Virus record (IMG/VR): IMGVR_UViG_3300046499_000102 | Coordinates: 1 to 42,204 of that record | From: a virus | DNA: 42,204 nt | Direction: 5' to 3' (one strand) | Shown here: positions 22,740 to 38,571 of the stretch, piece by piece | Numbering within the stretch: the stretch's first letter is position 1 | How the letters are laid out: each line of letters begins with the position of its first letter | Position numbers and translations under genes: made by a program | The notes under the pieces: model-generated | The model's database searches: none | Told to the model about the DNA's origin: nothing | Seen by the model: the letters and a program-made list of their open reading frames with translations, nothing else

Positions 22740-22755
22740 TCACTGTGATTCACTA
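22740..22755 (+). promoter_or_regulatory. tandem TCACTG site before the 22789 unit
   Basis: TCACTG TGAT TCACTA: two copies at 10-bp spacing with one mismatch in the second. The end lies 21 bp before the TACACT -10 at 22777, the same distance as at the 28048 site. Confidence 0.65.
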
Positions 22756-22776
22756 TCTCGGCGCCGTGATTTCGGG

Positions 22777-22782
22777 TACACT
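22777..22782 (+). promoter_or_regulatory. -10 of a leaderless promoter
   Basis: TACACT sits 6 bases before ATG 22789. No ribosome site exists, so translation probably starts at the 5' end of the transcript. A -35 is not obvious, which would fit an activator or operator at 22740-22755. Confidence 0.5.
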
Positions 22783-22788
22783 AGACAC

Positions 22789-23016
22789 ATGAGCGAATCA
22801 AAAGAAGTGATCCCGGAGGCTGCGGTCGAGGCGGCGGTGAGGTGCTTCCCTGGTTACGACCCCGATTGGGAAGCTGACGAGCTGGACCGCGCAGAGAATG
22901 CGGCGATCCGATCTAGAGCACTTCAAATCCTTGAAGCCGCAGCCCCGTTCATCGCCACTGAAGCGTGGCACCGGGGATATGTAGCGGCGCTAGATGGACG
23001 GGAGCCCACCAAGTGA
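22789..23016 (+). CDS. VIPD-family small protein (rightward)
   Basis: 75 residues: EVIPEAAVEAAVRCF, then ILEAAAPFIATEAWHRGYVAAL. Same helical family as the genes upstream of int, but encoded on the opposite strand. Frame is open upstream to 22681 but the only supported start is ATG 22789, where a -10 element implies leaderless mRNA. Its end overlaps the next gene by GTGA. It lies between attP and the terminator cluster; function unknown. Confidence 0.62.
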   Translation: MSESKEVIPEAAVEAAVRCFPGYDPDWEADELDRAENAAIRSRALQILEAAAPFIATEAWHRGYVAALDGREPTK

Positions 23017-23159
23017 TCCCGCACGAGGCAGTCGAAGCAGCGGCGCGGGCTACGCGCGCCGTCGCACTCCCCTCCGGGCATTCAAAGACGGAATGGCTTG
23101 ACTACCACAATGCCCTCGCCCGCGCCGCCCTCGAAGCCGCGGCCCCGTATATGAAGTAA
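23013..23159 (+). CDS. VIPD-family miniprotein
   Basis: 48 residues: starts with GTG in AAGTGATCCCGC, giving MIPHEAVEAAARAT, and ends RAALEAAAPYMK. It is the shortest family member, reduced to the two conserved blocks joined by a 20-residue linker. Coupled to 22789 by a 4-bp overlap. Confidence 0.6.
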   Translation: MIPHEAVEAAARATRAVALPSGHSKTEWLDYHNALARAALEAAAPYMK

Positions 23160-23257
23160 CTAGATGGCCTGAAGCGGCAGGTAAGTACGTGGGCAAGCGC
23201 GCTGGCCGGGTTGGGCGCGAACGTCTTCTTCTGGTCCACGTCGCCATGTAACACGGG

Positions 23258-23286
23258 AGGCCCCCACCTGCCAGTGGGGGCCTTTT
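23258..23286. terminator. terminator 1 of triple cluster
   Basis: Ten-bp perfect stem AGGCCCCCAC / GTGGGGGCCT with a 6-base loop and TTTTG on the plus strand. Ends the rightward 22789-23159 unit. Confidence 0.85.
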
Positions 23287-23296
23287 GTTGGCCCAC

Positions 23297-23334
23297 AAAA
23301 AGCGCCTCAACTCTCCATTGAGTGGGGGCGTTTT
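23297..23334. terminator. terminator 2 of triple cluster
   Basis: Imperfect stem (GCGCC with GGGGGCG outside, CTCAA/TTGAG inside). Minus-strand tail CTTTTTG, plus-strand tail GTTTTG: works in either direction. Confidence 0.65.
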
Positions 23335-23344
23335 GCTGTGCCCA

Positions 23345-23385
23345 CAAAAAAGCGCCTCCCGCTTGCTGCAAAACGGGGGCGCTTC
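23345..23385 (-). terminator. terminator 3, for the repressor/ImmA unit
   Basis: Stem AAGCGCCTCCCG / CGGGGGCGCTT followed on the minus strand by six T residues. It lies 3 bp after the stop of the ImmA-like gene, ending leftward transcription. Confidence 0.82.
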
Positions 23386-23387
23386 TG

Positions 23388-23792
23388 TTAGTTCTGTGCG
23401 GCGACCATCCGCTGGGCCCGCATCGCAATGGCGGGGCATAGCTGGCAGTCCCAACAGCCGGCGCGGCTTGCATCGGCATCGGTCAACGTTGCGGCCCGAT
23501 CCATCAACACCCGCTTCGTCACCCCGAGCCCTTTAGCAATCTCGGACAGCTTCTCACCCTTACAGGATCCGATGCGTTCCATTGGCAGCATCCGCCGGGC
23601 AGTCTCATACCTGACAGCCATCTCCTCCGACTCCAACTGCCGGGTAGCGTGCCCCCGCTCAACGTGAATCAGCTCATGCATCAACGTGCACAGCAACTGC
23701 CTGGCGTTCAACCTGTCATCAACGTAAATCTTCACACCGTCCGTGTACCCGTGAACACCATCGGGCAAACGACCAACAACAACCTGCGGCAT
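23388..23792 (-). CDS. ImmA/IrrE-type metalloprotease
   Basis: 134 residues. Zinc protease motif HELIH at 39-43 inside CTLMHELIHVERGH, with a downstream acidic cluster (ESEEMA, ~55-60) supplying the third ligand. After it an HTH-like segment (KLSEIAKGLGVTKRVLMDRA, ~81-100) and a Cys cluster CWDCQLC (113, 116, 119). ImmA-type enzymes cut the cognate phage or ICE repressor to trigger induction; the adjacent HTH gene is the likely partner. Ribosome site AGGGGACAGTT. The Cys cluster is unusual and may sense redox or metal state. Confidence 0.83.
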   Translation of the reverse strand: MPQVVVGRLPDGVHGYTDGVKIYVDDRLNARQLLCTLMHELIHVERGHATRQLESEEMAVRYETARRMLPMERIGSCKGEKLSEIAKGLGVTKRVLMDRAATLTDADASRAGCWDCQLCPAIAMRAQRMVAAQN

Positions 23793-23905
23793 AACTGTCC
23801 CCTACTACGCAACCGACCAGCCCCAACGACTGTTCGTGCACTAAACATAGGGCTGGGGTACGACCGCTTCAGACCAAAAGTCGCATTTCAGGTGTCACAA
23901 ATTCA

Positions 23906-23930
23906 TTACCGAAAAGTGAGGGTTCGGTAA
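23906..23930. repeat. inverted repeat TTACCGAA-N9-TTCGGTAA
   Basis: Perfect 8-bp arms in the 211-bp gap between repressor and ImmA-like gene. Could be an operator controlling separate expression of the protease, or an mRNA hairpin. The rest of the gap shows no open frame. Confidence 0.5.
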
Positions 23931-24003
23931 CACGGACGTAACGGTGCAGGTCAGGGCCGAAGGACCCTAGTTGGTGAACTTTTGTTGCCGTGTTGCGGGT
24001 CAC

Positions 24004-24477
24004 CTAGTCCCGGTCATCCTCGCCCTCAACGTGATCGTCCGAAGCGGCAAGGTCGAAGTGTTCGCGCATGTCAGCGGCTCCTAGGCCGACCTGCAACGAC
24101 TCGATGCGCTGGGCGACCTCACGCAGCAGTTCAGCCGTGGAGAACGCCGACAGCGGGCGCGGGGCAGGCACCTCAGCGGGCTTGTCCAGGTCAGCGAACG
24201 TAATCTCAGAAGCCTTCAACCATGTTGACTCAGTCATCTCGTCAATAACCTGGTTGCGCCACCCCAGCGCCACCTCCAACTTGCGGAGAGTCTGAGGACG
24301 CGGCCACCGCTGACCAAACTCAAACTGCTGCACCGTGCTATCGGAACCCAGCCCTGCCAGCTCTGCGAAGGCGACCCTTCCCAGCCCAAGCTCCTCGCGC
24401 CGCTGCTTAGCCAGAAGACCCAGCCGCCGCATCATCGCTTCCTGACCGTAATCGCGTCCTTCAAGTGCTGCACTCAT
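24004..24477 (-). CDS. HTH immunity repressor (XRE family)
   Basis: 157 residues. HTH of the XRE/Cro-C1 type at ~16-70 (LGLLAKQRREELGLGRVAFAELAGLGSDSTVQQFEFGQRWPRPQTLRKLEVALGW), then a linker and a C-terminal helix (AELLREVAQRIESLQVG) likely for oligomerisation. It lacks a LexA-type peptidase domain, consistent with inactivation by the neighbouring ImmA-like protease. ATG 24477 follows AAGAGGTTTTG. Divergent from the Cro-like gene across a 294-bp control region; likely maintains lysogeny. Confidence 0.82.
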   Translation of the reverse strand: MSAALEGRDYGQEAMMRRLGLLAKQRREELGLGRVAFAELAGLGSDSTVQQFEFGQRWPRPQTLRKLEVALGWRNQVIDEMTESTWLKASEITFADLDKPAEVPAPRPLSAFSTAELLREVAQRIESLQVGLGAADMREHFDLAASDDHVEGEDDRD

Positions 24478-24621
24478 CAAAACCTCTTATCCGCCGCCGG
24501 CTCAATGGCGACTCTAGGTACTGCTGTTGGGGCGGCCTGGTCTTAGATGCCTGCCGTGCCCCTTGCTCAATGACCAAACTCAAACACGCCACCCTCGGTA
24601 GCAGCAAAAGTTTTTTCTAGT

Positions 24622-24649
24622 AGTTTATCCAGTGAAAACCGGTAGCCAA
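24622..24649 (-). promoter_or_regulatory. repressor promoter (leftward)
   Basis: Minus strand: -35 TTGGCT (24644-24649), 16-bp spacer, -10 TAAACT (24622-24627). The spacer contains TTCACTGG, the TCACTG element (24630-24635). The transcript leader of ~140 nt carries no open frame. Confidence 0.55.
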
Positions 24650-24701
24650 GGGTGAAACGTACCCGAACAGATATTCGAAACTACTTGATTTCACCGCGTA
24701 A

Positions 24702-24784
24702 TCACTGGGATTTGGTACGTGCTACTGCAAGTCACTTGCGTAGTGGACAAATTGCTACTAGAGTCACTGTCATGCAAACAGTGA
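24702..24784. promoter_or_regulatory. immunity operator cluster
   Basis: TCACTG at 24702-24707; palindrome GCAAGTCACTTGC at 24727-24739 with extra matching flanks (CTAC and GTAG); and an inverted pair TCACTG (24764-24769) ... CAGTGA (24779-24784) across the Cro-like start codon. Together with 24630 this surrounds both divergent promoters. Probable binding sites for the repressor and/or Cro-like protein. Confidence 0.6.
24736..24764 (+). promoter_or_regulatory. early rightward promoter, leaderless
   Basis: -35 TTGCGT (24736-24741), exact 17-bp spacer, -10 TAGAGT (24759-24764), then 7 bases to ATG 24772. No ribosome site. The -35 lies in the GCAAGTCACTTGC palindrome and the -10 touches TCACTG, so a bound repressor would block it. 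Confidence 0.62.
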
Positions 24785-25038
24785 AAGCCAGTAAGGCTAC
24801 CAAAAACCCGGAAATGGTCCGCGTTGGTCGGACACTCTCAACTCTCCGTGAGCGCTACGGATACACGCAGCAGGGACTAGCTGACGCACTCGGCGTCTCC
24901 CGCCCTTACATCAGCCTCATCGAACTCGGCAGGAAGCCCCTCCAGGATCGCCTCCTCGCCAGGGTCGCCGACATCCTCGAAATCACACCCCTCGCAATCA
25001 AGACCTACGACCACGAAGAAATGATGGTGGCGGCATGA
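24772..25038 (+). CDS. Cro-like HTH regulator (XRE family)
   Basis: 88 residues. XRE HTH at ~17-72: VGRTLSTLRERYGYTQQGLADALGVSRPYISLIELGRKPLQDRLLARVADIL. First gene of the rightward early unit and divergent from the repressor, the usual Cro place. The frame is open from GTG 24652, but a promoter lies between, and ATG 24772 is 7 bases after the -10. Ends in a 4-bp overlap with 25035. Confidence 0.8.
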   Translation: MQTVKASKATKNPEMVRVGRTLSTLRERYGYTQQGLADALGVSRPYISLIELGRKPLQDRLLARVADILEITPLAIKTYDHEEMMVAA

Positions 25039-25364
25039 GCGCCCGTGACGAGTTGGCAGAGATCATCCAGGACTGCGGGGAATACATTCCCGGATCGCAT
25101 GCCGACGACTATGTGAGCCCAGACAAGGCCGCCGACGCGATCCTCGCCGCGGGCTACTCGAAGCCCCGCACGATCACAACCGCCGAAGAACTGGACGCGC
25201 TGCCGGTCATGTCCGTGGTGCTTGACCGGCTCGACATCTGCTACCGGCTATATCGCGACACGGCCTACCGCGAGCCCGTCTGGTGCGTCGTGGGCGAGAC
25301 CTCACCCAGCAGCCCGCACGCATGGCTCCCCGCCACCGTCCTCTACGAGCCCAAGAGCGCATGA
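25035..25364 (+). CDS. MSARDELAE-family protein, copy 1
   Basis: 109 residues. Shares with the gene at 26014 the start MSARDELAE, the core AADAILAAGYSKPRTITTAEELDALP, and the end LPA-x-VLY. The variable middle differs, as after duplication and divergence. The family is common in Arthrobacter-type phages; no known function. ATGA overlaps on both sides. Confidence 0.68.
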   Translation: MSARDELAEIIQDCGEYIPGSHADDYVSPDKAADAILAAGYSKPRTITTAEELDALPVMSVVLDRLDICYRLYRDTAYREPVWCVVGETSPSSPHAWLPATVLYEPKSA

Positions 25365-25597
25365 CCGTTTTTGATGAACGGTTCATGACGGTTCAGGAAC
25401 TCGCCGGCTACCTCGGCATCTCCACAACCAGCGTTTACAACCGGCTCCACGAGTGGCCGCACATGAGGACGACGGCGAAGGGGATCATCCGGTTCCGCGA
25501 AGCACACGTCGAACAAATCCTCGAATCCATGACCAAAAAACCCGCACCACCAGCGACCCGGCCCAACGTCGGGACCAGAGCCAGGAGAGGCCGATGA
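25361..25597 (+). CDS. excisionase-like HTH protein
   Basis: 78 residues. Helix-turn-helix of the HTH_17/MerR-like type at ~10-45: MTVQELAGYLGISTTSVYNRLHEWPHMRTTAKGIIRF, then a basic Pro/Arg tail. Small proteins of this kind are often phage excisionases, so it may direct prophage excision; it may instead be a repressor. ATG 25361 overlaps the previous stop by 4 bp. Third in the early rightward unit, as expected for Xis. Confidence 0.65.
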   Translation: MTVFDERFMTVQELAGYLGISTTSVYNRLHEWPHMRTTAKGIIRFREAHVEQILESMTKKPAPPATRPNVGTRARRGR

Positions 25598-25740
25598 ACG
25601 ACGAAGACGAAATCAGCCCGGAACTGCGGAAGCTTCTGGCGGCGGCGTGGGAGTCCGGATACTGGGCCGGCACCTCCCACACAGGCCCGCTGAACGACGC
25701 CGCAGTGAGCGCCCGCAACCCATACAGGGAAGCCGCGTGA
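25594..25740 (+). CDS. small AWxxG/NPY protein
   Basis: 48 residues. Contains KLLAAAWESGYWAG and RNPYREAA, the same C-terminal blocks as the VIPD-family genes at 22167 and 37539 but without the VIPD part. ATG 25594 after CAGGAGAGG; 4-bp overlap upstream. Function unknown. Confidence 0.58.
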   Translation: MNDEDEISPELRKLLAAAWESGYWAGTSHTGPLNDAAVSARNPYREAA

Positions 25741-25898
25741 TGGGGATGAGTACCACGGTTCGCAGCACAACCGGGACGGCGCCCCTCATCATCACCCGAA
25801 TCAGCCCAGACAAAGTATTCATCCAAACCGAAGACGGCGCGGCACAAGAGTACTGGGTAACCGAAATCCGAGCAGCAATCGAAGGAGAAACGAAATGA
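25740..25898 (+). CDS. hypothetical small protein
   Basis: 52 residues, mostly beta (APLIITRISPDKVFIQTEDG) then a short helix. Start by TGATG overlap. Not recognised. Confidence 0.52.
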   Translation: MGMSTTVRSTTGTAPLIITRISPDKVFIQTEDGAAQEYWVTEIRAAIEGETK

Positions 25899-26017
25899 CC
25901 ACCACAGCTAAGCACCGCAGCACCTGGACCGCCGAACGGTTCAGCGAAGACCTGATCAAAGCCGTCCACGTCGCAACCGGCAAGCGCGTAGACCTCATCA
26001 AGGGGTACCGGAAATGA
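25895..26017 (+). CDS. hypothetical 40-residue protein
   Basis: Basic peptide with the helix AERFSEDLIKAVHVATGKRVDLIKGYRK. ATG 25895 after GAAGGAGAAACGAA; overlaps both neighbours by 4 bp. Short but well placed in a coupled operon. Not recognised. Confidence 0.5.
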   Translation: MTTTAKHRSTWTAERFSEDLIKAVHVATGKRVDLIKGYRK

Positions 26018-26346
26018 GCGCCCGGGACGAGCTGGCGGAGACTGTTGGCGCATGTATGGGGCCTTGGGACGTTCCCGGGAATTTAGATGAATGGGAGATG
26101 ATCGCCGACGCAATCCTCGCTGCTGGCTACTCGAAGCCCCGCACGATCACCACCGCCGAAGAGTTGGACGCGCTGCCGAATGGGTCCGTCGTCCTCTCCG
26201 ACGTCTACAGGGCGCACCACGGGCAGGCCATTTCGTTCCAGCGGTGGGAAGACGGCTGCTGGCATCGCGGCGCACGGTCCTCCGACACGCACCCGGACAA
26301 CTTCCTGCCTGCCATCGTCCTCTACTCCCCGAAGGAGTCCAAGTGA
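26014..26346 (+). CDS. MSARDELAE-family protein, copy 2
   Basis: 110 residues, paralogue of 25035: identical opening MSARDELAE and core AILAAGYSKPRTITTAEELDALP, then a divergent part with WEDGCWHRGARSS and the end FLPAIVLYSP. The two copies flank four small genes, so recombination between them could delete those genes. ATG overlaps the previous stop. Function unknown. Confidence 0.68.
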   Translation: MSARDELAETVGACMGPWDVPGNLDEWEMIADAILAAGYSKPRTITTAEELDALPNGSVVLSDVYRAHHGQAISFQRWEDGCWHRGARSSDTHPDNFLPAIVLYSPKESK

Positions 26347-26714
26347 TCCCCGCAAGCAACATGCACGCCCGCTGGTTGGTGCGCCATTACGCAAAGCAGC
26401 ACGTGACGGAAACCGAATGGAATGAGTCGTCGTATTCCTGGATCGCACGGGCCAGGCGTACCCAGGCGGCGATGAACGCGGCTATCGGGGCGCGCATCAA
26501 CGGCGCCGATTTGAACCAGCTCATCACCGACTTTGAGGAGTTGGAGTCTGTCGAGTGCGGCACCCACCCGGATCTTGTCGTGAACAACGCCGGCACCGTG
26601 GACAACACCCTCGAACTCACCGAGCGCGTCACGGCCCAGATCAACGCGTCCATCACCGAACTGTTGGCCTGCGCCGAACCGTTCGCCCGAGCAGAAGAAA
26701 AGGTAAGCGCATGA
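26343..26714 (+). CDS. hypothetical helical protein
   Basis: 123 residues; GTG 26343 in AAGTGATCCCC, the same junction as in VIPD genes but encoding MIPASNMHARW. Helical with conserved-looking HARWLVRHYAKQHVTETEWNESSY. No recognised domain. Confidence 0.58.
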   Translation: MIPASNMHARWLVRHYAKQHVTETEWNESSYSWIARARRTQAAMNAAIGARINGADLNQLITDFEELESVECGTHPDLVVNNAGTVDNTLELTERVTAQINASITELLACAEPFARAEEKVSA

Positions 26715-26863
26715 ACGACCACGACGCCATGGAAGCCGTGAATGCGGTCCTGGAGCAGTTTTTCGACGGCGAGTTTGACACGGCGGGCGCACTGAACCGG
26801 ATCGCCCAGATCAGCGACGAAAACAAGATCAGCCACAGCGAAGCAAAGGACGCCCAGAAGTGA
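26711..26863 (+). CDS. hypothetical acidic small protein
   Basis: 50 residues, acidic, helical (DAMEAVNAVLEQFFDGEFDTAGALNRIAQIS). Overlaps both neighbours by 4 bp (ATGA, GTGA). Not recognised. Confidence 0.52.
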   Translation: MNDHDAMEAVNAVLEQFFDGEFDTAGALNRIAQISDENKISHSEAKDAQK

Positions 26864-26946
26864 CCCTCATCCTGCTTTGCGCAGTCGTCTTCACGGGCAT
26901 CGAGTCGGCCCGCCTCATCACCCAACCAGCCAGGAGGAATAAGTGA
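26860..26946 (+). CDS. 28-residue hydrophobic microprotein
   Basis: MTLILLCAVVFTGIESARL... then a basic tail PARRNK. One short hydrophobic stretch could insert in the membrane. GTG start overlaps the previous stop (GTGA); its own stop overlaps the next GTG. An AGGAGG-like site for the next gene lies in its last codons. Real because it exactly fills the operon phase, but unproven. Confidence 0.42.
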   Translation: MTLILLCAVVFTGIESARLITQPARRNK

Positions 26947-27113
26947 ACACGCCTGACGTAGAAACTCAAGCAATTCTCGCCCTGTGCCACCACCAAGAAG
27001 GCCGATTCCACGAGGAATGCGAGGCTTGCATCTTCCGGCAGGCCGCAGCCATCGAGCACCTGCAATGCCTTGTATCGGGCCTTTTGACATCACTAGACGG
27101 AGAGCCCTCATGA
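26943..27113 (+). CDS. small Cys/His protein
   Basis: 56 residues with CHHQEGRFHEECEACIFRQ (~15-33), a possible zinc-binding Cys/His layout. GTG 26943 follows CAGGAGGAATAA. Not recognised. Confidence 0.52.
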   Translation: MNTPDVETQAILALCHHQEGRFHEECEACIFRQAAAIEHLQCLVSGLLTSLDGEPS

Positions 27114-27238
27114 GCCACATCCCAACATGCCAGATCCGCCGCGAGCTTACCGGCAACATATGGACCTACTACTCAGACCCTGACCCGGCATGCAACGACC
27201 GCAGCCACCACGACGCATACATGGAGGAAACCAAATGA
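27110..27238 (+). CDS. hypothetical 42-residue protein
   Basis: Short peptide ...CQIRRELTGNIWTYYSDPDPACNDRSHHDAYM... Overlaps by 4 bp at each end. Not recognised. Confidence 0.48.
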   Translation: MSHIPTCQIRRELTGNIWTYYSDPDPACNDRSHHDAYMEETK

Positions 27239-27594
27239 GCAGCGAACTTCTCGAAAAGTACGACTACGAAACGAACCAATACGTACCGATCCCCGGCACT
27301 GAGGACTGGGTAGAGGTTGCCAAACTGGGCGATCAGGGCGGCTACGACTGGAGTGACTTCAACGCCTTCTACTCGCCGTCAGCTCGCCGCTACTTCTGGC
27401 GCGGTGACAGTGGATGCTCCTGCAACTCATGGATCGATGACATTCACGACGCCGCCAGCCTCGAGAACGGCGACCGCGATGCACTGCTGCGCGCATGGGA
27501 CACGTTCGCCAAGGAGCACGAGTACAGCATCCCGCTCAGCGTCTACCTGCCGGGAGTATCCGAAATCCGCAACTTCGCGGAGGCCACCAAATGA
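27235..27594 (+). CDS. hypothetical acidic protein
   Basis: 119 residues, acidic and aromatic-rich: PIPGTEDWVEVAKLGDQGGYDWSDFNAFYSPSARRYFWRGDSGCSCNSW. The low pI and aromatic content recall DNA-mimic or anti-restriction inhibitors, but no family was recognised. 4-bp overlaps. Confidence 0.58.
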   Translation: MSSELLEKYDYETNQYVPIPGTEDWVEVAKLGDQGGYDWSDFNAFYSPSARRYFWRGDSGCSCNSWIDDIHDAASLENGDRDALLRAWDTFAKEHEYSIPLSVYLPGVSEIRNFAEATK

Positions 27595-27761
27595 ACGCCC
27601 AGCACCCCCAGAACAGCAACGTCCAGCAGGCCCGCACGTTCAGCAAGCAGGCCGTCCTGAACCATGTCCCGCGCAACCTGGAGGAGGAGCGGCTGGCGTT
27701 GCGGTTCCTCGACAAGTGGGCCCCGGATCTGGTCGGCGTCATCATGGGTGGCGTGCTGTGA
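27591..27761 (+). CDS. hypothetical 56-residue protein
   Basis: Contains HVPRNLEEERLALRFLDKWAPDLVGVIMGGVL, an amphipathic helix and hydrophobic end. Coupled by 4-bp overlaps. Not recognised. Confidence 0.5.
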   Translation: MNAQHPQNSNVQQARTFSKQAVLNHVPRNLEEERLALRFLDKWAPDLVGVIMGGVL

Positions 27762-27898
27762 GCCGCGCATGGGAAGCCGCAGTCAACGCCGAGTTCGTCG
27801 CAAAGGTGAAGAAGATCGTTGAGGAATGGCACAACGACGAGACAACCAACTTCCAGGCCATGCAAGAAATCGAGTACGTCGTGGAGACTCACGGATGA
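27758..27898 (+). CDS. hypothetical 46-residue protein
   Basis: GTG start in GTGA overlap; helical (EFVAKVKKIVEEWHNDETTNFQAMQEIEYVVE). Not recognised. Confidence 0.48.
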   Translation: MSRAWEAAVNAEFVAKVKKIVEEWHNDETTNFQAMQEIEYVVETHG

Positions 27899-28032
27899 CC
27901 CCGAACCCACTCGACCCCACCGAGCAGGCCGCATTCCGGGAACTTGACCAGCTACGCCGATGCCCCGACAACTGCCCGTGTAGGACCGATGACGCCATGA
28001 CCACCCCGCTCGACCTGGACGACATCGAATAA
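27895..28032 (+). CDS. hypothetical 45-residue protein
   Basis: Contains a CPDNCPC cluster (~23-29) and an acidic end. Last gene of the first coupled early block; a tandem TCACTG site follows 15 bp later. Not recognised. Confidence 0.5.
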   Translation: MTPNPLDPTEQAAFRELDQLRRCPDNCPCRTDDAMTTPLDLDDIE

Positions 28033-28047
28033 CTTTTGCCCACCGAC

Positions 28048-28077
28048 TCACTGCGAATCACTGCAAAAAGTCAGTGA
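28048..28077 (+). promoter_or_regulatory. tandem TCACTG site, block 2
   Basis: TCACTG (28048-28053), TCACTG (28058-28063), then inverted CAGTGA (28072-28077), 8 bases from the second copy. It precedes the -10 TAGAAT at 28085. Confidence 0.72.
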
Positions 28078-28084
28078 AACAGGA

Positions 28085-28090
28085 TAGAAT
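28085..28090 (+). promoter_or_regulatory. putative -10 for the HNH/recombination block
   Basis: TAGAAT (5 of 6 to TATAAT), 21 bp after the second TCACTG. The 18-bp-upstream hexamer CTGCAA, part of the operator, may serve as a poor -35. Start of transcription ~28097 leaves a short leader with AAAGGAC before ATG 28115. Confidence 0.52.
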
Positions 28091-28114
28091 CAAAGAACCG
28101 AACAAAGGACAACC

Positions 28115-28735
28115 ATGAGCTGCATGCCTGGCATATGCTCCATCCCCGAATGCGGCCGTGACGTTCGGGCCGCCGGATATTGCAACCGTCACTACTTACG
28201 ACTCAAGCGCCACGGCGATCCACTTGCGGGCGGATCGCCCAGCATGGCCGGGATGAGCCTGCCCGACAGATTCTGGGCAAAGGTCCAGCGTGCCGACGAT
28301 CCATCTAAGTGCTGGGCATGGACCGGCTCGCACACGTCGGCGGGCTACGCAAACCTAAACCTCGGATCGGGCAATTACGGATACGCGCACCGCGTGTCAT
28401 ACGAGCTACACCATGGCGCCATCCCGGACGGTTTCGAAATAGACCATATCTGCCGAAATCGCGGCTGCATGAATCCCGAGCACCTCAGGCCCGCGACTCG
28501 GAAACAGAACAACGAAAACCTCTCGGTGGAATCGCCGAACAATAAGACCTCGGGAACCCGCGGGGTCAGCTACGACAAGTCGACGCGATCCTGGATGACC
28601 TATACCGGACACAACGGCCAGCGGATCTACGGCCCGCGATTCTCCAACCAGCAAGACGCAGCCGAGTACTCACGGCAACTGCGGCTCTCACTCTTCACGC
28701 ACAATGACGCAGATAGGAAAACCCATGCCCTTTAA
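28115..28735 (+). CDS. HNH homing endonuclease with AP2-like domain
   Basis: 206 residues. N-terminal zinc finger (Cys8, Cys13, Cys23, His26: CSIPECGRDVRAAGYCNRHY), HNH core EIDHICRNRGCMNPEHL (Asp110, His111, Asn120, His123), and a C-terminal AP2-like DNA-binding segment (TRGVSYDKSTRSWMTYTGHNGQRIYG). Clear paralogue of 38721. Likely a selfish free-standing endonuclease, inserted at a block boundary right after the regulatory site. Its last codons overlap the next gene. Confidence 0.88.
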   Translation: MSCMPGICSIPECGRDVRAAGYCNRHYLRLKRHGDPLAGGSPSMAGMSLPDRFWAKVQRADDPSKCWAWTGSHTSAGYANLNLGSGNYGYAHRVSYELHHGAIPDGFEIDHICRNRGCMNPEHLRPATRKQNNENLSVESPNNKTSGTRGVSYDKSTRSWMTYTGHNGQRIYGPRFSNQQDAAEYSRQLRLSLFTHNDADRKTHAL

Positions 28736-29995: not shown

Positions 29996-29997
29996 TA

Positions 29998-31244: not shown

Positions 31245-31260
31245 AGGCTTGCTAACCAAG

Positions 31261-31276
31261 TCACTGCATTTCACTG
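31261..31276 (+). promoter_or_regulatory. tandem TCACTG site, block 3
   Basis: TCACTGCATT TCACTGCATC: two copies at 10 bp. No -10 element at the usual distance; the hairpin at 31289-31312 lies there instead. Suggests action on elongation rather than initiation. Confidence 0.7.
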
Positions 31277-31288
31277 CATCAACCCAGT

Positions 31289-31312
31289 AGGCGCCCCCGA
31301 AAGGGGGCGCCT
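31289..31312 (+). terminator. 10-bp GAAA-loop hairpin
   Basis: AGGCGCCCCC-GAAA-GGGGGCGCCT: perfect GC-rich stem capped by a stable GNRA tetraloop, 19 bp before the methylase start. No T-run, so it could protect mRNA, attenuate, or terminate with help. Confidence 0.6.
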
Positions 31313-31330
31313 GGACCCCAAGGAGGCACC

Positions 31331-32226: not shown

Positions 32227-32369
32227 GCAAGTTTCATCTCACCGTGGCGGACAACATGGCCGCACTCGCAAAATGGCATACGGTCGAGCACCCGCTCACA
32301 TCATGGGCTGCCTGCCCGCACAGCCCGTGTGACCACATGGACACCGAGTTCCGGCGGTGCTGGAAATGA
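32223..32369 (+). CDS. hypothetical 48-residue protein
   Basis: Has KWHTVEHPLTSWAACPHSPCDHMDTEFRRCW, a Cys/His-rich half that could bind zinc. 4-bp overlaps. Not recognised. Confidence 0.52.
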   Translation: MSKFHLTVADNMAALAKWHTVEHPLTSWAACPHSPCDHMDTEFRRCWK

Positions 32370-32910: not shown

Positions 32911-32999
32911 GCGCGGCCACGGAGGAACGCAAGGCCCAGCGCCGGCAAGCAGACAAGGCCCGCAAAGAAGCGCACAAAATCCAAAGGATGAGCAAATGA
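32907..32999 (+). CDS. 30-residue basic microprotein
   Basis: MSAATEERKAQRRQADKARKEAHKIQRMSK: a single strongly basic helix that could bind nucleic acid. Coupled at both ends by 4-bp overlaps, which supports it as a gene. Confidence 0.45.
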   Translation: MSAATEERKAQRRQADKARKEAHKIQRMSK

Positions 33000-33328
33000 A
33001 GAACCCCACCGTCCACCGCGACATCTGCGGGACAGTCCCCGGCTACCGCGCCCACACCAAACGCGTAGAGGAAAGGTGCCAGCCCTGCAAAGAAGCCTGG
33101 ACAATCCGCTGCCGCAAATACACCAAACCCACACCCACCCTGCCCACCGCCGCCGAAGTCATCGCCGAAATTGAATGGATGCTCGACCTCAACCAGGGCA
33201 CCGGCTACATCCTCAAAGCCATCGGCTACACCGGGCGCGAAGACAGCCTCCGCGCACGCCTCCAAAAATGGGGACGCCTCGACGTATACCACCGCCTCAT
33301 CGGCGAAGAATACTGGGCGGCGGCGTGA
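32996..33328 (+). CDS. hypothetical protein, HTH-like
   Basis: 110 residues. N-terminal GTVPGYRAHTKRVEERCQPCKEAWTIRCRKY (Cys-x2-Cys) is the pattern of small actinophage regulators; the C-terminal helices (GTGYILKAIGYTGREDSLRARLQKWGRLDVY) suggest DNA binding. Last gene of block 3. Confidence 0.6.
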   Translation: MKNPTVHRDICGTVPGYRAHTKRVEERCQPCKEAWTIRCRKYTKPTPTLPTAAEVIAEIEWMLDLNQGTGYILKAIGYTGREDSLRARLQKWGRLDVYHRLIGEEYWAAA

Positions 33329-33336
33329 GAACCGAG

Positions 33337-33352
33337 TCACTGCAAATCACTG
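33337..33352 (+). promoter_or_regulatory. tandem TCACTG site, block 4
   Basis: TCACTGCAAA TCACTGAAAG, in a gap of only 39 bp; ends 15 bp before ATG 33368 and overlaps its ribosome site GAAAGGAC. No room for a -10. Binding here could block elongation or, as RNA, translation. Confidence 0.7.
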
Positions 33353-33367
33353 AAAGGACTACAGCGA

Positions 33368-34234
33368 ATGGCTGACAAGAGGGCGTTTGCCCAATTTGAT
33401 GTCGGCTACCTGGACAACCCGAAGATCATGGACGTTCTTGACGAGTCCCCTACTGCTGTCCTGATGCACGCGGCGTCGGTCCTGTATTGCGCCCAGCACC
33501 TCACGGACGGCGTTATCGCATCCGGCCCCATGCAGCGCAAAGTAGGCGGCTCAGGGGCTGATACAAGGCTCCTCATCGACAAGGGGCTGTGGCACATCCC
33601 GGGTCACGAATGCCAGTTCTGCCCCGAGGTCGAAGACGGCAAGGTCTACGTCCATGACTACACCGAACACAACCGCACATCCGAGGGCGTGAAGCGCAGC
33701 GTGGAGGCCGGCAAGAAGGGAGCCGCCGCCAGATGGAACAAAAATGCGGTACCCAATGCGGATCGCATGCGAACCGCATACGAATCGCATAGCGAACCGC
33801 AATGCGATTCTTCCGAAATCGCAATGGCTAGAGAGAGAGAAAGAGAGAGAGAAGAAGAAGCTAAAGCTTCTTCCCCGAAGATTGATCGGCCCGACATTGA
33901 TCAGGTCATTCAAGGCTTCTCCGAACTACTCACAGCCAACGACGTAAAGCACAAGGCGAACGACTCCTGGCGCAGAGCGGCGAGGCTCCTGATCGATAAG
34001 GACGGGTACACCCCAGAGCAGGTCTTGTTTGTCGCAAGGTATGCAACAACGGACGAGTTCTGGATGTCGAACATCCTGTCCCTGCCGAAGCTGCGGGAGA
34101 AGTTCGAGGCACTAAAGATCAAAGCGCAGGGAAATAAACCGAAGACCGGGTCGCAGGTCAGGCTTCAGGCAGGCTTTGACCTCCTTCAGGAAACAAGGGC
34201 CGAGATGGCCGGACAACTAGAACTAGGAGCATGA
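33368..34234 (+). CDS. replication initiator / helicase-loader-like protein
   Basis: 288 residues. N-terminal winged-helix-like region (~8-110, FAQFDVGYLDNPKIMDVLDESPTAVLMHAASVLY to VYVHDYTEHNRTSEG), a repetitive charged linker (RERERERE, ~156-163), and a C-terminal helical domain (~175-270) of DnaD or loader type. Probably starts phage DNA replication. The linker DNA holds repeats and purine tracts that may be the origin. Followed by a second short replication-type gene and RusA. Confidence 0.75.
   Translation: MADKRAFAQFDVGYLDNPKIMDVLDESPTAVLMHAASVLYCAQHLTDGVIASGPMQRKVGGSGADTRLLIDKGLWHIPGHECQFCPEVEDGKVYVHDYTEHNRTSEGVKRSVEAGKKGAAARWNKNAVPNADRMRTAYESHSEPQCDSSEIAMAREREREREEEAKASSPKIDRPDIDQVIQGFSELLTANDVKHKANDSWRRAARLLIDKDGYTPEQVLFVARYATTDEFWMSNILSLPKLREKFEALKIKAQGNKPKTGSQVRLQAGFDLLQETRAEMAGQLELGA
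33743..33873 (+). repeat. candidate replication origin inside the initiator gene
   Basis: 33743-33825 holds about ten copies of ATGCG/CGCAT and two of GCGAACCGCA. Next, 33829-33860 is almost pure purine (GAGAGAGAGAAAGAGAG...). Then a perfect 9-bp hairpin GAAGAAGCT-AA-AGCTTCTTC (33854-33873). Iterons plus an asymmetric tract inside an initiator gene is the lambda O layout. Confidence 0.55.
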
Positions 34235-34235
34235 G

Positions 34236-34652
34236 ATGCAGCTTGACGAGACGGTGGCCCTGATAACTTGGATCAACCAACACGACCCTCGGGTGCAGGT
34301 CACGAAGGGCGCCCGTGACATCTGGGCTCACTCGCTGGCCCCGGTGACTTACAGCGAGGCGCAGCAGGCGGTCCTTGAGCATTACCGGGCGAACGATCAG
34401 GATCTTCCGAACCCTGGGACGATCCGTAAGCGGGCGTTGGCGATCCGGGCGTCACGCGAGGCAGGGCAGCGCGCCATTGAGGGCCCTGCGCAGCCCGTGA
34501 AGCACCCTCTGAGCTGGCGGAAGCGCAATCCGGAGGAATGGGACCGCCTGTTCGAGCAGGGGCGGCGTGAGGGCAACGAGGAGCGCCGCCTGGCTACCGA
34601 GGCCCGCAAGGGCGACGCCGAGGAAAACCACGACGGATGGATGGCGGCGTGA
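34236..34652 (+). CDS. replication-associated protein
   Basis: 138 residues, helical: ALITWINQHDPRVQVTKGARDIWAHSLAPVTYSEAQQAVLEHYRAND, then a charged C-terminal half. The first half resembles small loader/inhibitor proteins that accompany phage helicases. No ATPase or helicase is found in this window, so host DnaB is the probable partner. Inference from position. Confidence 0.58.
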   Translation: MQLDETVALITWINQHDPRVQVTKGARDIWAHSLAPVTYSEAQQAVLEHYRANDQDLPNPGTIRKRALAIRASREAGQRAIEGPAQPVKHPLSWRKRNPEEWDRLFEQGRREGNEERRLATEARKGDAEENHDGWMAA

Positions 34653-35002
34653 CCAGCCTTCAAATTTTCGTCCCGAAGCCGACCGACTGGCTCAACAGCA
34701 ACCAGCGCCTGCACCGGATGGTGAAAGCAATCCGCGTGAAAGCGTGGCGGGCAGCAGCAGCCGAAGCAGTCCCGCCAGGATGGTCGTTCGATCACCCGGT
34801 ACGGATCGTTGCGCACGTCTGGAAAGATCGGGCCGGCAGGTATGACCCGAACAACCTGAACACCACCACGAAGGCGTGCGTTGACGGGTTCGTTGACGCG
34901 GGCCTACTCGTGGACGATGACTGGAAACATGTAACCGGCCCGGACCACCGTCACGGCGGAAAGGGTGAACCCGGCATTATTTTCTCGTTCGAGTCACTGT
35001 GA
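34649..35002 (+). CDS. RusA-like Holliday-junction resolvase
   Basis: 117 residues. RusA pattern: RYDPNNLNTTTKACVDGFVDAGLLVDDDWKHV, with acids at Asp66, Asp79, Asp89-91 and Lys75. Would resolve recombination intermediates before packaging. GTG 34649 overlaps the previous stop; the in-frame ATG at 34637 is inside that gene. Last gene of block 4. Confidence 0.85.
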   Translation: MTSLQIFVPKPTDWLNSNQRLHRMVKAIRVKAWRAAAAEAVPPGWSFDHPVRIVAHVWKDRAGRYDPNNLNTTTKACVDGFVDAGLLVDDDWKHVTGPDHRHGGKGEPGIIFSFESL

Positions 35003-35009
35003 TTCACTG
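34994..35009 (+). promoter_or_regulatory. tandem TCACTG site, block 5
   Basis: TCACTGTGAT TCACTG. The first copy starts inside the last codons of the RusA gene, so the element is not coding-neutral. It ends 11 bp before TAAGAT. Confidence 0.72.
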
Positions 35010-35020
35010 TCCAAACAGGG

Positions 35021-35026
35021 TAAGAT
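35021..35026 (+). promoter_or_regulatory. putative -10 for block 5
   Basis: TAAGAT, 21 bp after the first TCACTG. The leader (~35033-35075) has a hairpin CCCACC / GGTGGG before the ribosome site GGAGATGAG. Confidence 0.5.
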
Positions 35027-35075
35027 AGCAACAGCCCCACCCTTGCGCGGTGGGCACGAAATGGAGATGAGCACC

Positions 35076-35267
35076 ATGATTTTTATCTACGCAGAGAACG
35101 AACTGGACATCACTGTCGAGCCGATCAGCCTCAACGGCAGGCCTGGCGGTGTGAGTCTCACGGATTCCGAAGACGACCTTGACATCACGTTCGAAAACAT
35201 TAGGACGGCCCGAGCTTGGGCGAAGAAGCTAACCAAGAAGCTCGAGAAGTTCGAGGCAACGTCATGA
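35076..35267 (+). CDS. hypothetical 63-residue protein
   Basis: IFIYAENELDITVEPISLNGRPGG... with a basic helical end (ARAWAKKLTKKLEKFEATS). I chose ATG 35076 because GGAG lies 9 bases upstream; 35061 and 35067 are possible. Contains two similar DLDITxE segments. Not recognised. Confidence 0.55.
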   Translation: MIFIYAENELDITVEPISLNGRPGGVSLTDSEDDLDITFENIRTARAWAKKLTKKLEKFEATS

Positions 35268-35401
35268 CCGCCCTTCAAGAGCTGATAACCCTCGTGGACA
35301 GCCTAGATGAGGACCAGCACGATTACCGCGATGTGCGTGCCATCAAGCGCATCGCCCACAATTTGCAGAAGATCGCCGAGAACATGGAGCCCGCAAAATG
35401 A
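35264..35401 (+). CDS. hypothetical 45-residue helical protein
   Basis: ELITLVDSLDEDQHDYRDVRAIKRIAHNLQKIAENM: two amphipathic helices. 4-bp overlaps. Not recognised. Confidence 0.5.
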   Translation: MTALQELITLVDSLDEDQHDYRDVRAIKRIAHNLQKIAENMEPAK

Positions 35402-35625
35402 GCATGTCCGAAGTTGGACTAATAGCCGCCGCGCTAAGGATGGCCGCGGACAAGATCGAAGGGGCCATTGCCGCCGGTGATATTGCCGAGTGCGCCGCGC
35501 CTGTAGAAGGCGAGAGCGGACGTTACGAGGCTGTCCAATCACGTGACCTGGCGCAAGAAGACCCAGCCGAATGGCTCAGGTGCGAAGCTGACGCGATAGA
35601 AGCTGCTGATGAGGTGGAGATATGA
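35398..35625 (+). CDS. hypothetical acidic 75-residue protein
   Basis: Helical and acidic (LIAAALRMAADKIEGAIAAGDIAE...EWLRCEADAIEAADEVEI). 4-bp overlaps on both sides. Not recognised. Confidence 0.52.
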   Translation: MSMSEVGLIAAALRMAADKIEGAIAAGDIAECAAPVEGESGRYEAVQSRDLAQEDPAEWLRCEADAIEAADEVEI

Positions 35626-35837
35626 GCTACAACGAGCACCTGATCAGCATGGCCGGCGGGGACGGGGATAGATCTGAGCGGAAGAAGGCCCTCGGAAGAC
35701 TCCGCGCAAGTCTCATCGCCGAACTCTGGCCGGAGATGAACTGCTCTTACTTCGAGTTGCCAACCTGGGCTCAGGAATACGTTGACACGGCCCTCGACCA
35801 ATCCATCGCCGCACTCACCGCCCCGGACGCATCATGA
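35622..35837 (+). CDS. hypothetical 71-residue protein
   Basis: Helical (RKKALGRLRASLIAELWPEM) with an acidic end. 4-bp overlaps. Not recognised. Confidence 0.52.
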   Translation: MSYNEHLISMAGGDGDRSERKKALGRLRASLIAELWPEMNCSYFELPTWAQEYVDTALDQSIAALTAPDAS

Positions 35838-35977
35838 GCGAGGACATCCGCGCCTACCAGGCCAGCATTCAGCGTGACGGCGCGGACCTTGCGGCGGCGA
35901 TCATGACCCGCCGGCGCAGGAAGTGCATCGCGGAAGGATGCCACATCGACGGGGCATGCGGGAGGTGCGGGCTGTGA
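35834..35977 (+). CDS. 47-residue Cys-rich protein
   Basis: Basic helix TRRRRK then CIAEGCHIDGACGRCGL: four Cys and a His could bind zinc. ATGA overlap upstream, GTGA downstream. Similar short C-x4-C...C-x2-C peptides occur in actinophages. Confidence 0.5.
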   Translation: MSEDIRAYQASIQRDGADLAAAIMTRRRRKCIAEGCHIDGACGRCGL

Positions 35978-36129
35978 CCGACCGCACGAACAATTACGAC
36001 TTGCTCCTGGCCCGTGAGTCAGAATCCCGCGAACGGATCGCCAAAGCGTTGTACGAAATCGAACTGCAACGCGGCAACGGGGTCCACTGCCCATCAGCCA
36101 TTACACACATACTCGAGGGGGGCAAATGA
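35974..36129 (+). CDS. hypothetical 51-residue protein
   Basis: GTG start in overlap; helical (YDLLLARESESRERIAKALYEIELQRG). Not recognised. Confidence 0.5.
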   Translation: MTDRTNNYDLLLARESESRERIAKALYEIELQRGNGVHCPSAITHILEGGK

Positions 36130-36479
36130 GCAGCGATGGTGAACTGTACGACGGCGACGGATACCCAACTGATGCCGCGATAGCCAAGCTTGAATCATTC
36201 CGGGGAACCGCCGAGGAGATGGCCGATTACATCCAGTCACTCATGCGCAACGGTGGCGCAAAGGTTGAGGACTACCTTGACGAATGGAGCCGCGAACATA
36301 AGCGACTGACTCTCGTGAGCATGGGTTGGTCCGGGTGCGAGTCCGTTATTGGCGCACTCGACGGCACCATGTTCCACTATCTTTTCTGGGAATCGTCATT
36401 CCGCGGCGGGCTGCACACTTACACATTTTCGCTGAAGCAGTGGGAGATGGAATCGCAATGGGGCAAGGTGACGGCATGA
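36126..36479 (+). CDS. hypothetical 117-residue protein
   Basis: Acidic N-terminal half (GELYDGDGYPTDAAIAKLESFRGTAEEMADYIQSLM) and an aromatic C-terminal half (FHYLFWESSFRGGLHTYTFSLKQWEMESQW). The mix suggests a small soluble domain. ATG 36126 follows GAGGGGGGCAA. Not recognised. Confidence 0.55.
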   Translation: MSSDGELYDGDGYPTDAAIAKLESFRGTAEEMADYIQSLMRNGGAKVEDYLDEWSREHKRLTLVSMGWSGCESVIGALDGTMFHYLFWESSFRGGLHTYTFSLKQWEMESQWGKVTA

Positions 36480-37276
36480 CCTGCAAATGTGGCGCTGAGA
36501 ACGCCGAGGGAATCTACCTCTGTCACGCCTGCTGTGCCCGCCTGGAACAGCTCCTGTGCGAACTGGACAGCATCGTCAACGATCTGGTGTCGGCGATTCC
36601 GCGGGCGTCCCTGACAGCCTCGTATGGTGAACGTGTATCCGCCTCGGGTAGCCTGCACGCACCGTTGCCGATCAACGACACGGCGTTGGATGCAAAGATC
36701 GCGTTGGACAAGTACCTGATGCGTACCTGCCTGGACCTCGCCAGTTTCACCAACATTCACCTCAGCCGGCGCGACTCGTCAGGGCTCGCAAGTTACCTGC
36801 TCGCCAACATGGGGAAGTTGCGGGGAATGGACTGGGCCGGGACTATTGAGGGCGAGCTGGGCAAGTTGCTGCGGGAGTGTGAGGATGTGACCCGCGTGCA
36901 CGAACAGAAAGTGTTCGCCGGGACATGCGCTGAGGACGGGTCAGACCTGTACGCGGTCAAAGGTGCGGACACGGCCCGGTGCAAGACGTGCGGGCTCAGC
37001 TACGAGGTGGCCAGGTGGACGGCGTACGCGAAGACGGCGCAGGAATACTACATCGGGACTGCTGCGGACCTGTCACGGAAACTGTCCGCGCCGCAATACG
37101 GGTACCTCATCACCGCCGACCAGATCAGGAAGTGGGCGACACGGGGCAAACTCGACCGCGCCAACCCTGACGCGGACGAGACAGGCAAACCCATCCCGCC
37201 CGCTTATCGGCTCGGGGACGTGCTCGGGCTCAGGATCGACAGGTACAAACAATTTCCGATCAATGGAGCGGCATGA
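36476..37276 (+). CDS. zinc-ribbon / winged-helix DNA-binding protein
   Basis: 266 residues. N-terminal ribbon CKCGAENAEGIYLCHACCARLE (Cys pairs at 3, 5 and 16, 19), a central helical part, a second zinc pair (CAEDGSDLYAVKGADTARCKTCG), and a C-terminal winged-helix-like segment PQYGYLITADQIRKWATRGKLDRAN...PAYRLGDVLGLR. Likely a phage transcription or DNA-binding factor; this gene type is regular in Arthrobacter phages. Confidence 0.68.
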   Translation: MTCKCGAENAEGIYLCHACCARLEQLLCELDSIVNDLVSAIPRASLTASYGERVSASGSLHAPLPINDTALDAKIALDKYLMRTCLDLASFTNIHLSRRDSSGLASYLLANMGKLRGMDWAGTIEGELGKLLRECEDVTRVHEQKVFAGTCAEDGSDLYAVKGADTARCKTCGLSYEVARWTAYAKTAQEYYIGTAADLSRKLSAPQYGYLITADQIRKWATRGKLDRANPDADETGKPIPPAYRLGDVLGLRIDRYKQFPINGAA

Positions 37277-37542
37277 TGGCATCAGAAGTAGAAACCTTGG
37301 AATACCAGTCCCATGTACTCGTTGAGGGCATGGTCAAGGAATGGGTTAAGCAAGCCGCAGACGCAACGCGCGAGGGTGCTGGTGAGTTGACGGCAAGTGA
37401 GGCCATCCAGAGGATGCAGTGGCTGTACCTCGCCGAGCCGTGGCTTATCACGGACAAGATCATCAATGCGCTCAAGCTCTCGGGCTGGATCGCACCAGAA
37501 GGGTGCATCCAAGTCACCTATCAGAAGCAGGCCACCAAGTGA
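37273..37542 (+). CDS. hypothetical 89-residue protein
   Basis: Helical (LVEGMVKEWVKQAADATREGAGELTASEAIQRMQWLYLAEPWL). Ends with CAGGCCACCAAGTGA, joining to the GTGATCCCGGA module of the next gene. Not recognised. Confidence 0.55.
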   Translation: MMASEVETLEYQSHVLVEGMVKEWVKQAADATREGAGELTASEAIQRMQWLYLAEPWLITDKIINALKLSGWIAPEGCIQVTYQKQATK

Positions 37543-37871
37543 TCCCGGACGCTGATTGCGATGGCGGGTATACGTGTCCGTCCAGTGGGCATATCGAGGG
37601 GTGCTTCCGTCCTCACGTTGAACGTGAGCTACTCCCATCAACTCACCAAGTGATCCCGGACGTGGCGGTAGAAGCGGCGGCGAGGGCAATCGCGGCGCAG
37701 GACATGAGGGGCTACGACTGGGAGAGCTTCATTCCAGATGCAAAGGCGGCGCTCGAAGCCGCAGCCCCGCACATGCTCGCGGAAGCCTGGGATCTAGGCC
37801 ACGTGGCAGCGGCGGTTGATGCCAAATATGGCGGCAAGGAAGCCCTCAACCCCTACGGGAGCCAAGGTTGA
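37539..37871 (+). CDS. VIPD-family protein with duplicated start block
   Basis: 110 residues. GTG 37539 begins MIPDADCDGG, a truncated copy, then Cys/His-rich CPSSGHIEGCFRPHVE; a second VIPD block (QVIPDVAVEAAARAIAAQ, ~37-54) follows at the same DNA junction CCAAGTGATCCCGGA (37534-37548 and 37644-37658), then ALEAAAPHMLAEAWDLG and NPYGSQG. So it looks like a chimera of two modules. Function unknown. Confidence 0.66.
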   Translation: MIPDADCDGGYTCPSSGHIEGCFRPHVERELLPSTHQVIPDVAVEAAARAIAAQDMRGYDWESFIPDAKAALEAAAPHMLAEAWDLGHVAAAVDAKYGGKEALNPYGSQG

Positions 37872-38533
37872 GCGTCTACTATCAAGACGATTGCGTGACG
37901 CTGTACCACGGCAACTGCCTCACCGAGCATCGCGAATGGCTGGCGGCTGATGTGCTCGTCACTGACCCGCCGTATGGGATGGCATACGAGGCGAACTTCA
38001 ACCGACACAGGAAGTCCCGCCCCAGCGTTGGCCGCCCCGTCGCTGGCGACGCTGACACCGTAGCGCGAGACGGCGTCCTCGAAGCGTGGGCAGATAAACC
38101 GGCCCTCGTGTTCGGTCGCTGGAACTGTCCCCGCCCGGCCGGCACAAGGACGCGGCTGATATGGGACCGCGGCTATCATGGCATGGGTGATCTTGCGCTC
38201 CCGTGGGGTCCGACTGATGAGGAAATCTACGTCATTGGCTCCGGCTGGGTTGGCAAGAGAACCGCCAGCGTATTGCGCGTCCCCGCCCTGATGTCAGGAG
38301 ACCGGGAACGTCCGGCCCACCCGACTCCCAAGCCGATCCCACTCATGGAGCGGCTGATCGAGAAGTGTCCACCAGGGACTATCGCCGACCCGTTTGCAGG
38401 ATCCGGCGCGACACTCATGGCGGCAAAGAACCTGGGCCGCAAAGTGATCGGCGTTGAACTCGAAGAGAAGTACTGCGAGATCATCGCGAAACGCTGCTCT
38501 CAGGAAGTGTTCGACTTCGACATTTCCGCGTAA
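37868..38533 (+). CDS. DPPY-type DNA methyltransferase (N6A/N4C)
   Basis: 221 residues. Motif IV DPPYG (Asp33-Tyr36) before motif I ADPFAGSGATLMAAKNLGRKVIGVELEEKYC (~175-205), i.e. beta-class order, and HPTPKPIPLMERLI as in phage MTases. Modifies adenine N6 or cytosine N4. TTG 37868 overlaps the previous stop by TTGA, with GGGAGCCAAGG upstream. No cognate nuclease, so an orphan methylase, probably against host restriction. Confidence 0.85.
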   Translation: MSVYYQDDCVTLYHGNCLTEHREWLAADVLVTDPPYGMAYEANFNRHRKSRPSVGRPVAGDADTVARDGVLEAWADKPALVFGRWNCPRPAGTRTRLIWDRGYHGMGDLALPWGPTDEEIYVIGSGWVGKRTASVLRVPALMSGDRERPAHPTPKPIPLMERLIEKCPPGTIADPFAGSGATLMAAKNLGRKVIGVELEEKYCEIIAKRCSQEVFDFDISA

Positions 38534-38541
38534 CCATCGAG

Positions 38542-38571
38542 TCACTGTAAGTCACTGTTGCCACGCAGTGA
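38542..38571 (+). promoter_or_regulatory. tandem TCACTG site, block 6
   Basis: TCACTG (38542-38547), TCACTG (38552-38557), inverted CAGTGA (38566-38571) 8 bases on: the same three-part form as at 28048. A -10-like TAGTCT lies at 38581-38586. Confidence 0.72.

Follow-up and report, generated by a model that had tools for sequence, protein, structure and literature searches.

A tandem TCACTG element repeated in the early region of a temperate Arthrobacter-type phage: candidate dispersed operators of an XRE regulator

Introduction

Which protein reads the TCACTG-N4-TCACTG element that is repeated in the right half of a 42,204-nt viral DNA, and to what effect? The window, i.e., the whole stretch analysed (IMG/VR record IMGVR_UViG_3300046499_000102, positions 1 to 42,204), contains six such sites, for which an earlier note had proposed a possible new operator/stoperator system. 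The answer favoured here is that these sites are probably dispersed operators of the phage's own helix-turn-helix (HTH) regulator of the XRE family, most likely the repressor candidate encoded at 24004, possibly shared with the Cro-like protein encoded at 24772. Few phage groups are known to have dispersed operators, and stoperators have been described mainly in cluster A mycobacteriophages and phages related to them.

Judged from its sequence, the window is a temperate siphophage of the Arthrobacter type. It carries an integrase and a repressor gene read leftward, from which a Cro-like gene diverges. The assignment rests on its terminase, which shares 91% identity with the terminase of Arthrobacter phage Pitbull, and on a prophage of Arthrobacter sp. 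ES3-54 that encodes a repressor 83% identical to 24004. This prophage and contig G002 are apparently one element (constant offset between their site positions) and have to be counted once. All promoters and gene calls given below are predictions.

Detection of the six sites

Two exact TCACTG copies are found at 28048, 31261, 33337, 34994 and 38542, while the site at 22740 has one mismatch; all are on the + strand. When all 6-mers were searched in the right half of the window, TCACTG was the sole one to occur in at least three tandem pairs (spacers of 3-7). With up to two mismatches the window contains 14 pair matches, vs. a mean of 3.0 and a maximum of 9 in shuffled sequences. A 34-column matrix trained on relatives only recovers exactly the same six sites, at 25.9-44.6 bits, with a large drop to the seventh match (8.0 bits); the best score of 60 shuffles is 21.6.

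Site A (22740..22769, +; TCACTG-tgat-TCACTA-N8-CCGTGA; 25.9 bits) has a -10 hexamer, TACACT, at 22777 and is localized upstream of a predicted leaderless gene (ATG at 22789). Site B (28048..28077, +; TCACTG-cgaa-TCACTG-N8-CAGTGA; 43.8 bits) has TAGAAT at 28085. The highest score, 44.6 bits, is that of site C (31261..31290, +; TCACTG-catt-TCACTG-N8-CAGTAG), which has no -10. The same absence of a -10 characterizes site D (33337..33366, +; TCACTG-caaa-TCACTG with a degenerate third half-site; 28.8 bits), which immediately precedes the ribosome-binding site of a RepA-like gene. Site E (34994..35023, +; TCACTG-tgat-TCACTG-N8-GGGTAA; 38.8 bits) overlaps the last codons and stop of the upstream RusA-like open reading frame (ORF), and its -10, TAAGAT at 35021, overlaps the third half-site. 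Site F (38542..38571, +; TCACTG-taag-TCACTG-N8-CAGTGA; 39.0 bits) is followed by TTGCCA-N17-TAGTCT, then by a predicted terminator. The CGAG or CAAG reported to precede four of the sites is indeed present.

Architecture of the element

The element is larger than first noted. The consensus of 57 aligned exact sites (window and relatives) is T(-11)...A(-2)-TCACTG-YRWW-TCACTG-N8-CAGTRR, i.e., an inverted third half-site stands at a fixed N8 in most sites. The earlier note had seen inverted CAGTGA at 28072 and 38566, which is correct, and had missed it elsewhere. A fourth inverted half-site is found at +34 in some sites; in one relative, four half-sites form a full palindrome with N9 between the repressor and integrase genes.

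The half-site variants CTACTG/CAGTAG cluster in the rep-cro control region. In the window, a reversed tripartite site with N9 (TTACTG-N4-TCACTG-N9-CAGTGA; 24764..24794, -) covers the start of the cro-like gene. Its score is 7.6 bits, low by matrix because of N9, and it is a candidate autoregulatory operator of that gene. A degenerate tandem pair, CTACTG-caag-TCACTT (24722..24737, +), can be read upstream of the candidate cro promoter TTGCGT-N17-TAGAGT (at 24759).

This architecture also suggests an RNA element, i.e., a nut/put-like antitermination site or a leader hairpin in which TCACTG-N8-CAGTGA would fold in the transcript: TCACTG is able to pair with the inverted CAGTGA, and hairpins follow sites C, E and F. 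Such an element is very improbable. Sites A, B and E are upstream of their own predicted transcription starts, and the use of CAGTAG for CAGTGA breaks the stem with no matching change (the sites having been gathered by exact TCACTG). The predicted folds of B and D are unremarkable (z of -1.15 and -1.45, respectively) and do not use the TCACTG/CAGTGA stem; moreover, inverted and palindromic examples exist.

Placement relative to genes and promoters

Between 25,035 and 38,720 there are only five gaps, 28033-28114, 31245-31330, 33329-33367, 35003-35060 and 38534-38720, and each contains one site, as had been claimed. This check combined gene calling with hand-added small ORFs showing ATGA/GTGA overlaps, and the rest of the interval is continuous. 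Among the 57 exact sites, 48 are localized in gaps, 9 at gene edges or ends and none inside a gene, in genomes that are about 90% coding; pairs are therefore not as common in coding DNA. Nor are the sites absent from the same gaps in the relatives, so that neither of these two refuting conditions of the earlier note holds. The one-way orientation described for the window (all +) becomes a strong tendency when the relatives are considered: 52 of the 57 sites are on the same strand as the next gene, and three relatives carry one class in the opposite orientation.

A -10 of the form TANNNT starts at a fixed distance from the first repeat in 34 of 58 sites, i.e., at +37 (16 sites), +27 (10), +39 (5) or +38 (3), while the median at other offsets is zero. 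In the window the offsets are +37 for A and B, +27 for E and +39 for F. The three -10s given by the earlier note (22777, 28085, 35021) are correct, the occurrence of -10s at fixed offsets (+37, +27, +39) having been overlooked, and its observation that 31261 and 33337 have none is borne out, since there is no TANNNT at any tested offset. With -10s at +27, +37 and +38/39, the half-sites fall on the -35 region, the spacer or the -10 itself. A -10 at +27 merges with the third half-site (CAGTAGACT in relatives), and in several +37 sites the -10 merges with the fourth (CAGTAGAAT). A generic sigma-70 scan called no promoter or terminator on the + strand at the sites, but such a general-purpose scan is uninformative here.

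These distances could also be those of activator sites, where a phage protein bound near -41.5, or one helical turn closer, would recruit the polymerase to early promoters with a weak -35. Lambda CII activates on 10-bp-spaced direct repeats. The centre of the pair is at about -41.5 in A and B and about -31.5 in E, exactly one turn apart, and the three sites have good -10s and poor -35s. Activation is nevertheless unlikely: 31261, 33337 and their homologues have no -10, the promoter of site F is nearly complete, and a protein bound at the third half-site would be an obstacle, since that half-site overlaps the -10 or the spacer between -35 and -10. The 10-bp phasing of the -10s can also be explained without an activator, by the fusion of -10s to half-sites (e.g., CAG[TAGAAT]).

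The promoterless sites call for another comparison. In an L5-like stoperator, oriented bound sites would stop the elongating polymerase inside the early operon. The presence of one site per gap, the orientation with the next gene and the lack of a promoter at 31261 and 33337 agree with this role, and so do the hairpins found just after C and F. The first (31289..31312, +) is a strong hairpin with a GAAA loop, directly 3' of site C and conserved in relatives, which we infer to be a terminator or a processing element. The second (38664..38698, +), downstream of site F, resembles an intrinsic terminator, with a 15-bp stem and a CCTTTC tail. Both may be terminators acting with the bound protein. 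As the main role of the sites, however, stopping elongation is quite improbable: the majority of sites overlie promoters at fixed offsets, an inverted class exists as said above, the integrase-proximal site is palindromic in one relative, and the repressor is not of the cluster A type.

Phage specificity of the motif

In 2.9 million viral contigs the tripartite pattern gives 34 sites on 18 stretches, all of them in contigs of this phage family (i.e., already in the family or shown to share its genes), vs. 1 match for a control spacing of N11. In the 4.8-Mb genome of the lysogen Arthrobacter sp. ES3-54, 7/7 exact pairs are inside the prophage. A search of 398 Micrococcaceae genomes gave the tripartite pattern in this lysogen alone (5 matches), and a close homologue of the repressor (E 5e-92) is encoded in no genome but this one. 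The motif can thus serve as a nearly background-free marker of this immunity group in metagenomic data.

Host regulators of the OmpR/PhoP type bind direct repeats as well, and the direct-repeat form with its 4-bp spacer could recall one. This explanation was rejected and is hardly tenable. No exact pair is localized outside the prophage in the lysogen genome, 149 other genomes of the genus have about 0.36 exact pairs per genome, with unrelated spacers, and the tripartite form is absent from the 397 other Micrococcaceae genomes; these whole-genome counts largely refute it.

In isolated phages, no relative of the repressor was present in the collection searched, and no DNA similar to site C was found. 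No description of the motif was found in the open literature (subscription papers being outside the search), and the motif letters gave unrelated matches only, among the matches listed.

Candidate binding proteins

The leading candidate is the XRE/HTH_3 repressor of about 157 amino acids (aa) encoded at 24004..24477 (-). The second candidate is the divergent Cro-like XRE protein of 88 aa (24772..25038, +), which has an XRE HTH as well. Next to them, an ImmA/IrrE-like metalloprotease with an HELIH motif (23388..23792, -) is predicted to inactivate the repressor.

Wherever a contig with the motif extends into the immunity region, it encodes a homologue of 24004 and/or 24772. In these contigs, except where cut, the identities are 52-90% for 24004, 52-88% for 24772 and 78-86% for 23388; 7 contigs of the set (window included) carry the repressor gene and 8 the cro gene. 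The structural genes vary independently of the immunity genes among motif-bearing contigs.

In Pfam, 24004 matches HTH_3/HTH_31 only. Its model, of moderate confidence (predicted local distance difference test score, pLDDT, of 72), resembles XRE proteins such as C.BclI, SinR and DdrO, with no E-value below 0.001; the 50 PDB matches listed include no cluster A repressor. The comparison of recognition helices gives no choice between 24004 and 24772. It must be added that the repressor homologues of contigs G010 (L089, 8166-8819) and G006 (L085, 15194-15847) have an extra N-terminal HTH, i.e., two per chain, with unchanged tandem half-sites.

Proposed function and points against it

The operator part of the first proposal is well supported: the sites are phage-specific, locked to gaps, placed over core promoters and accompanied by the immunity XRE pair. 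Repression of initiation by the phage XRE regulator at the promoter-linked sites is the mechanism best supported by these features. The tandem half-sites with their 10-bp period would accept two protein units on one helix face; the inverted half-site 8 bp further would complete a dimer site, with sometimes a fourth inverted one. In the lysogen, the bound protein would cover the -35/-10 of the early promoters (22740, 28048, 34994, probably 38542, and cro) and so prevent initiation. In the promoterless gaps (31261, 33337) it could hinder the polymerase coming from upstream or silence weak starts; such a roadblock at C and D is a plausible possibility. If the repressor were lost, perhaps through the ImmA-like protease encoded next to it, every early block would be released at the same time.

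Several points weigh against this interpretation. The sites of the relatives are homologous, so that site counts are not independent, and their collection by exact TCACTG pairs hides variation inside TCACTG. The rep-cro control region contains mostly variant half-sites and not the consensus. Sites 31261 and 33337 offer no promoter to repress, and the 27/37 phasing, together with the weak -35s of A, B and E, would equally suit an activator. As regards the protein, co-occurrence cannot separate 24004 from 24772, and a MerR-like HTH protein (36476-37276), also common to the family and 27% identical in Pitbull, is a possible rival binder. Finally, the recognition-helix residues of both 24004 and 24772 differ between the 52%-identical subgroups while the motif is the same.

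Comparison with known systems

Dispersed operators are established in L5-like phages (PMC9283540), P1 (PMC8546580) and SPbeta (PMC10516654), and predicted in MabJ prophages (PMC9934374) and Rhodococcus cluster CA (PMC13313380). The idea is thus already known from L5, P1 C1 and SPbeta; the present site, its architecture and its protein family are new. The feature common to dispersed-operator immunity, i.e., a phage-specific site repeated over the early promoters and early region, is found here.

The likeness to the cluster A phages L5 and TipsytheTRex (PMC9283540) is extensive. There too, a temperate actinophage with a repressor of similar length carries many short sites, which occupy gaps or the ends of genes, almost always follow the direction of transcription and only in part coincide with promoters. 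However, the L5 sites are 13-14 bp long, asymmetric and more than 20 in number, and the protein that binds them is a monomer that contains two DNA-binding domains (PMC9283540). The window family has 5-7 sites with tandem and inverted half-sites, a partly palindromic core, an orientation that is not strict and a single-domain XRE candidate in place of the two-domain cluster A repressor. The motif itself differs, as had been noted: the L5 stoperator GGTGGMTGTCAAG has 4 matches with 2 mismatches in the window vs. 2.2 expected by shuffling, none at the sites. Since the listed matches of the fold search include XRE repressors and none of the cluster A type, the model indicates that the system is not a member of the L5 system. 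A tentative and rather doubtful proposal is that a stoperator system evolved here independently, outside the repressor family of cluster A: an XRE repressor at tandem 10-bp half-sites would act both as operator, where there is a promoter, and as elongation roadblock in gaps without one.

As in P1 (PMC8546580), one repressor would act at many operators across the phage genome, but the 22 P1 C1 sites are asymmetric, 17 bp long and of unrelated sequence, in an unrelated phage. The repeats of SPbeta (PMC10516654), termed SPBRE, were likewise seen in the sequence as intergenic repeats and later proven to be master-repressor sites; MrpR is tyrosine-recombinase-like and its motif has 15 bp. The start-associated sequences (SAS) and extended ones (ESAS) of cluster K (PMC3203893) are also early-half gap repeats oriented with transcription, and ESAS has inverted repeats. 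SAS (GGGATAGGAGCCC) is localized 3-7 bp before start codons (PMC3203893), while the sites of the window are 15-163 bp from starts, and GGGATAGGAGCCC gives chance matches only in the window. In Mycobacterium phage Pixie (L159), at 23288, 23923, 29753 and 31956, ESAS reads as two TGTTGA-N4-TCAACA palindromes, one of which contains TTGACA, like a -35; the Pixie ESAS may not be translation signals but operators at which a repressor acts on promoters.

The family appears to be a separate case, for which the site is defined, two proteins are candidates and a soil lysogen has been sequenced. With it, one can test directly whether a whole early operon is silenced by repressors from other families, through a block of initiation or of elongation. 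If these sites are repressor sites, a shared docking signal would let one protein silence many places at once.

Candidate operators in Pitbull and in distant prophages

Despite its shared structural genes, Pitbull has no homologue of 24004, 24772 or the protease 23388, and no TCACTG pairs. Its genome contains 10 copies of the palindrome GTTCCNNNNGGAAC vs. 1.9 expected, mostly in gaps. Palindromes resembling GTTCCATATGGAAC are found in gaps at 20953, 21740, 23186, 25172, 25889, 34951, 36502 and 39918 (L075). These palindromes are a probable separate set of dispersed operators.

The distant prophage G274 has related repressor, Cro and protease, and its cro promoter shows GTTACTCCA at the equivalent place, after TTGACA-N11. 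Three exact copies of GTTACTCCA are present, in the control region only, i.e., not dispersed. Another sequence of G274, AGACGAAAAA, was considered as a dispersed motif and dropped, its four copies being mostly in coding DNA. No co-varying dispersed motif was found in the distant repressor prophages G236, G214 and G340. Pitbull and G274 thus differ in both candidate operator and regulator, while the 52%-identical subgroup keeps TCACTG; the pattern of Pitbull and G274 fits operators changing with the regulator.

Other features of the window

A weak transfer-messenger RNA (tmRNA) match (22585-22946, -; 15.3 bits, below the family threshold) adjoins the integrase gene, with a T-arm-like 3' end around 22590-22650. 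Because of this match beside the integrase, the segment 22585-22946 is likely the phage attachment site (attP), and the phage probably integrates in ssrA. Besides this match, no known RNA family was found in the window.

The -10 hexamers of the cro-like gene (24759-24772) and of gene 22789 (22777-22789) end 6-7 bases upstream of the ATG, so that both genes are probably translated from leaderless mRNA. In the segment 38579-38698, the promoter-like TTGCCA-N17-TAGTCT is followed about 80 bases on by the strong terminator-like hairpin, and relatives also have a terminator-like hairpin; a short RNA or an attenuator is possible there. Two related HNH endonuclease genes (28115-28735 and 38721-39293) come directly after the operator gaps of sites B and F. 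The relatives are often without HNH genes at those places, which suggests homing insertions beside the sites.

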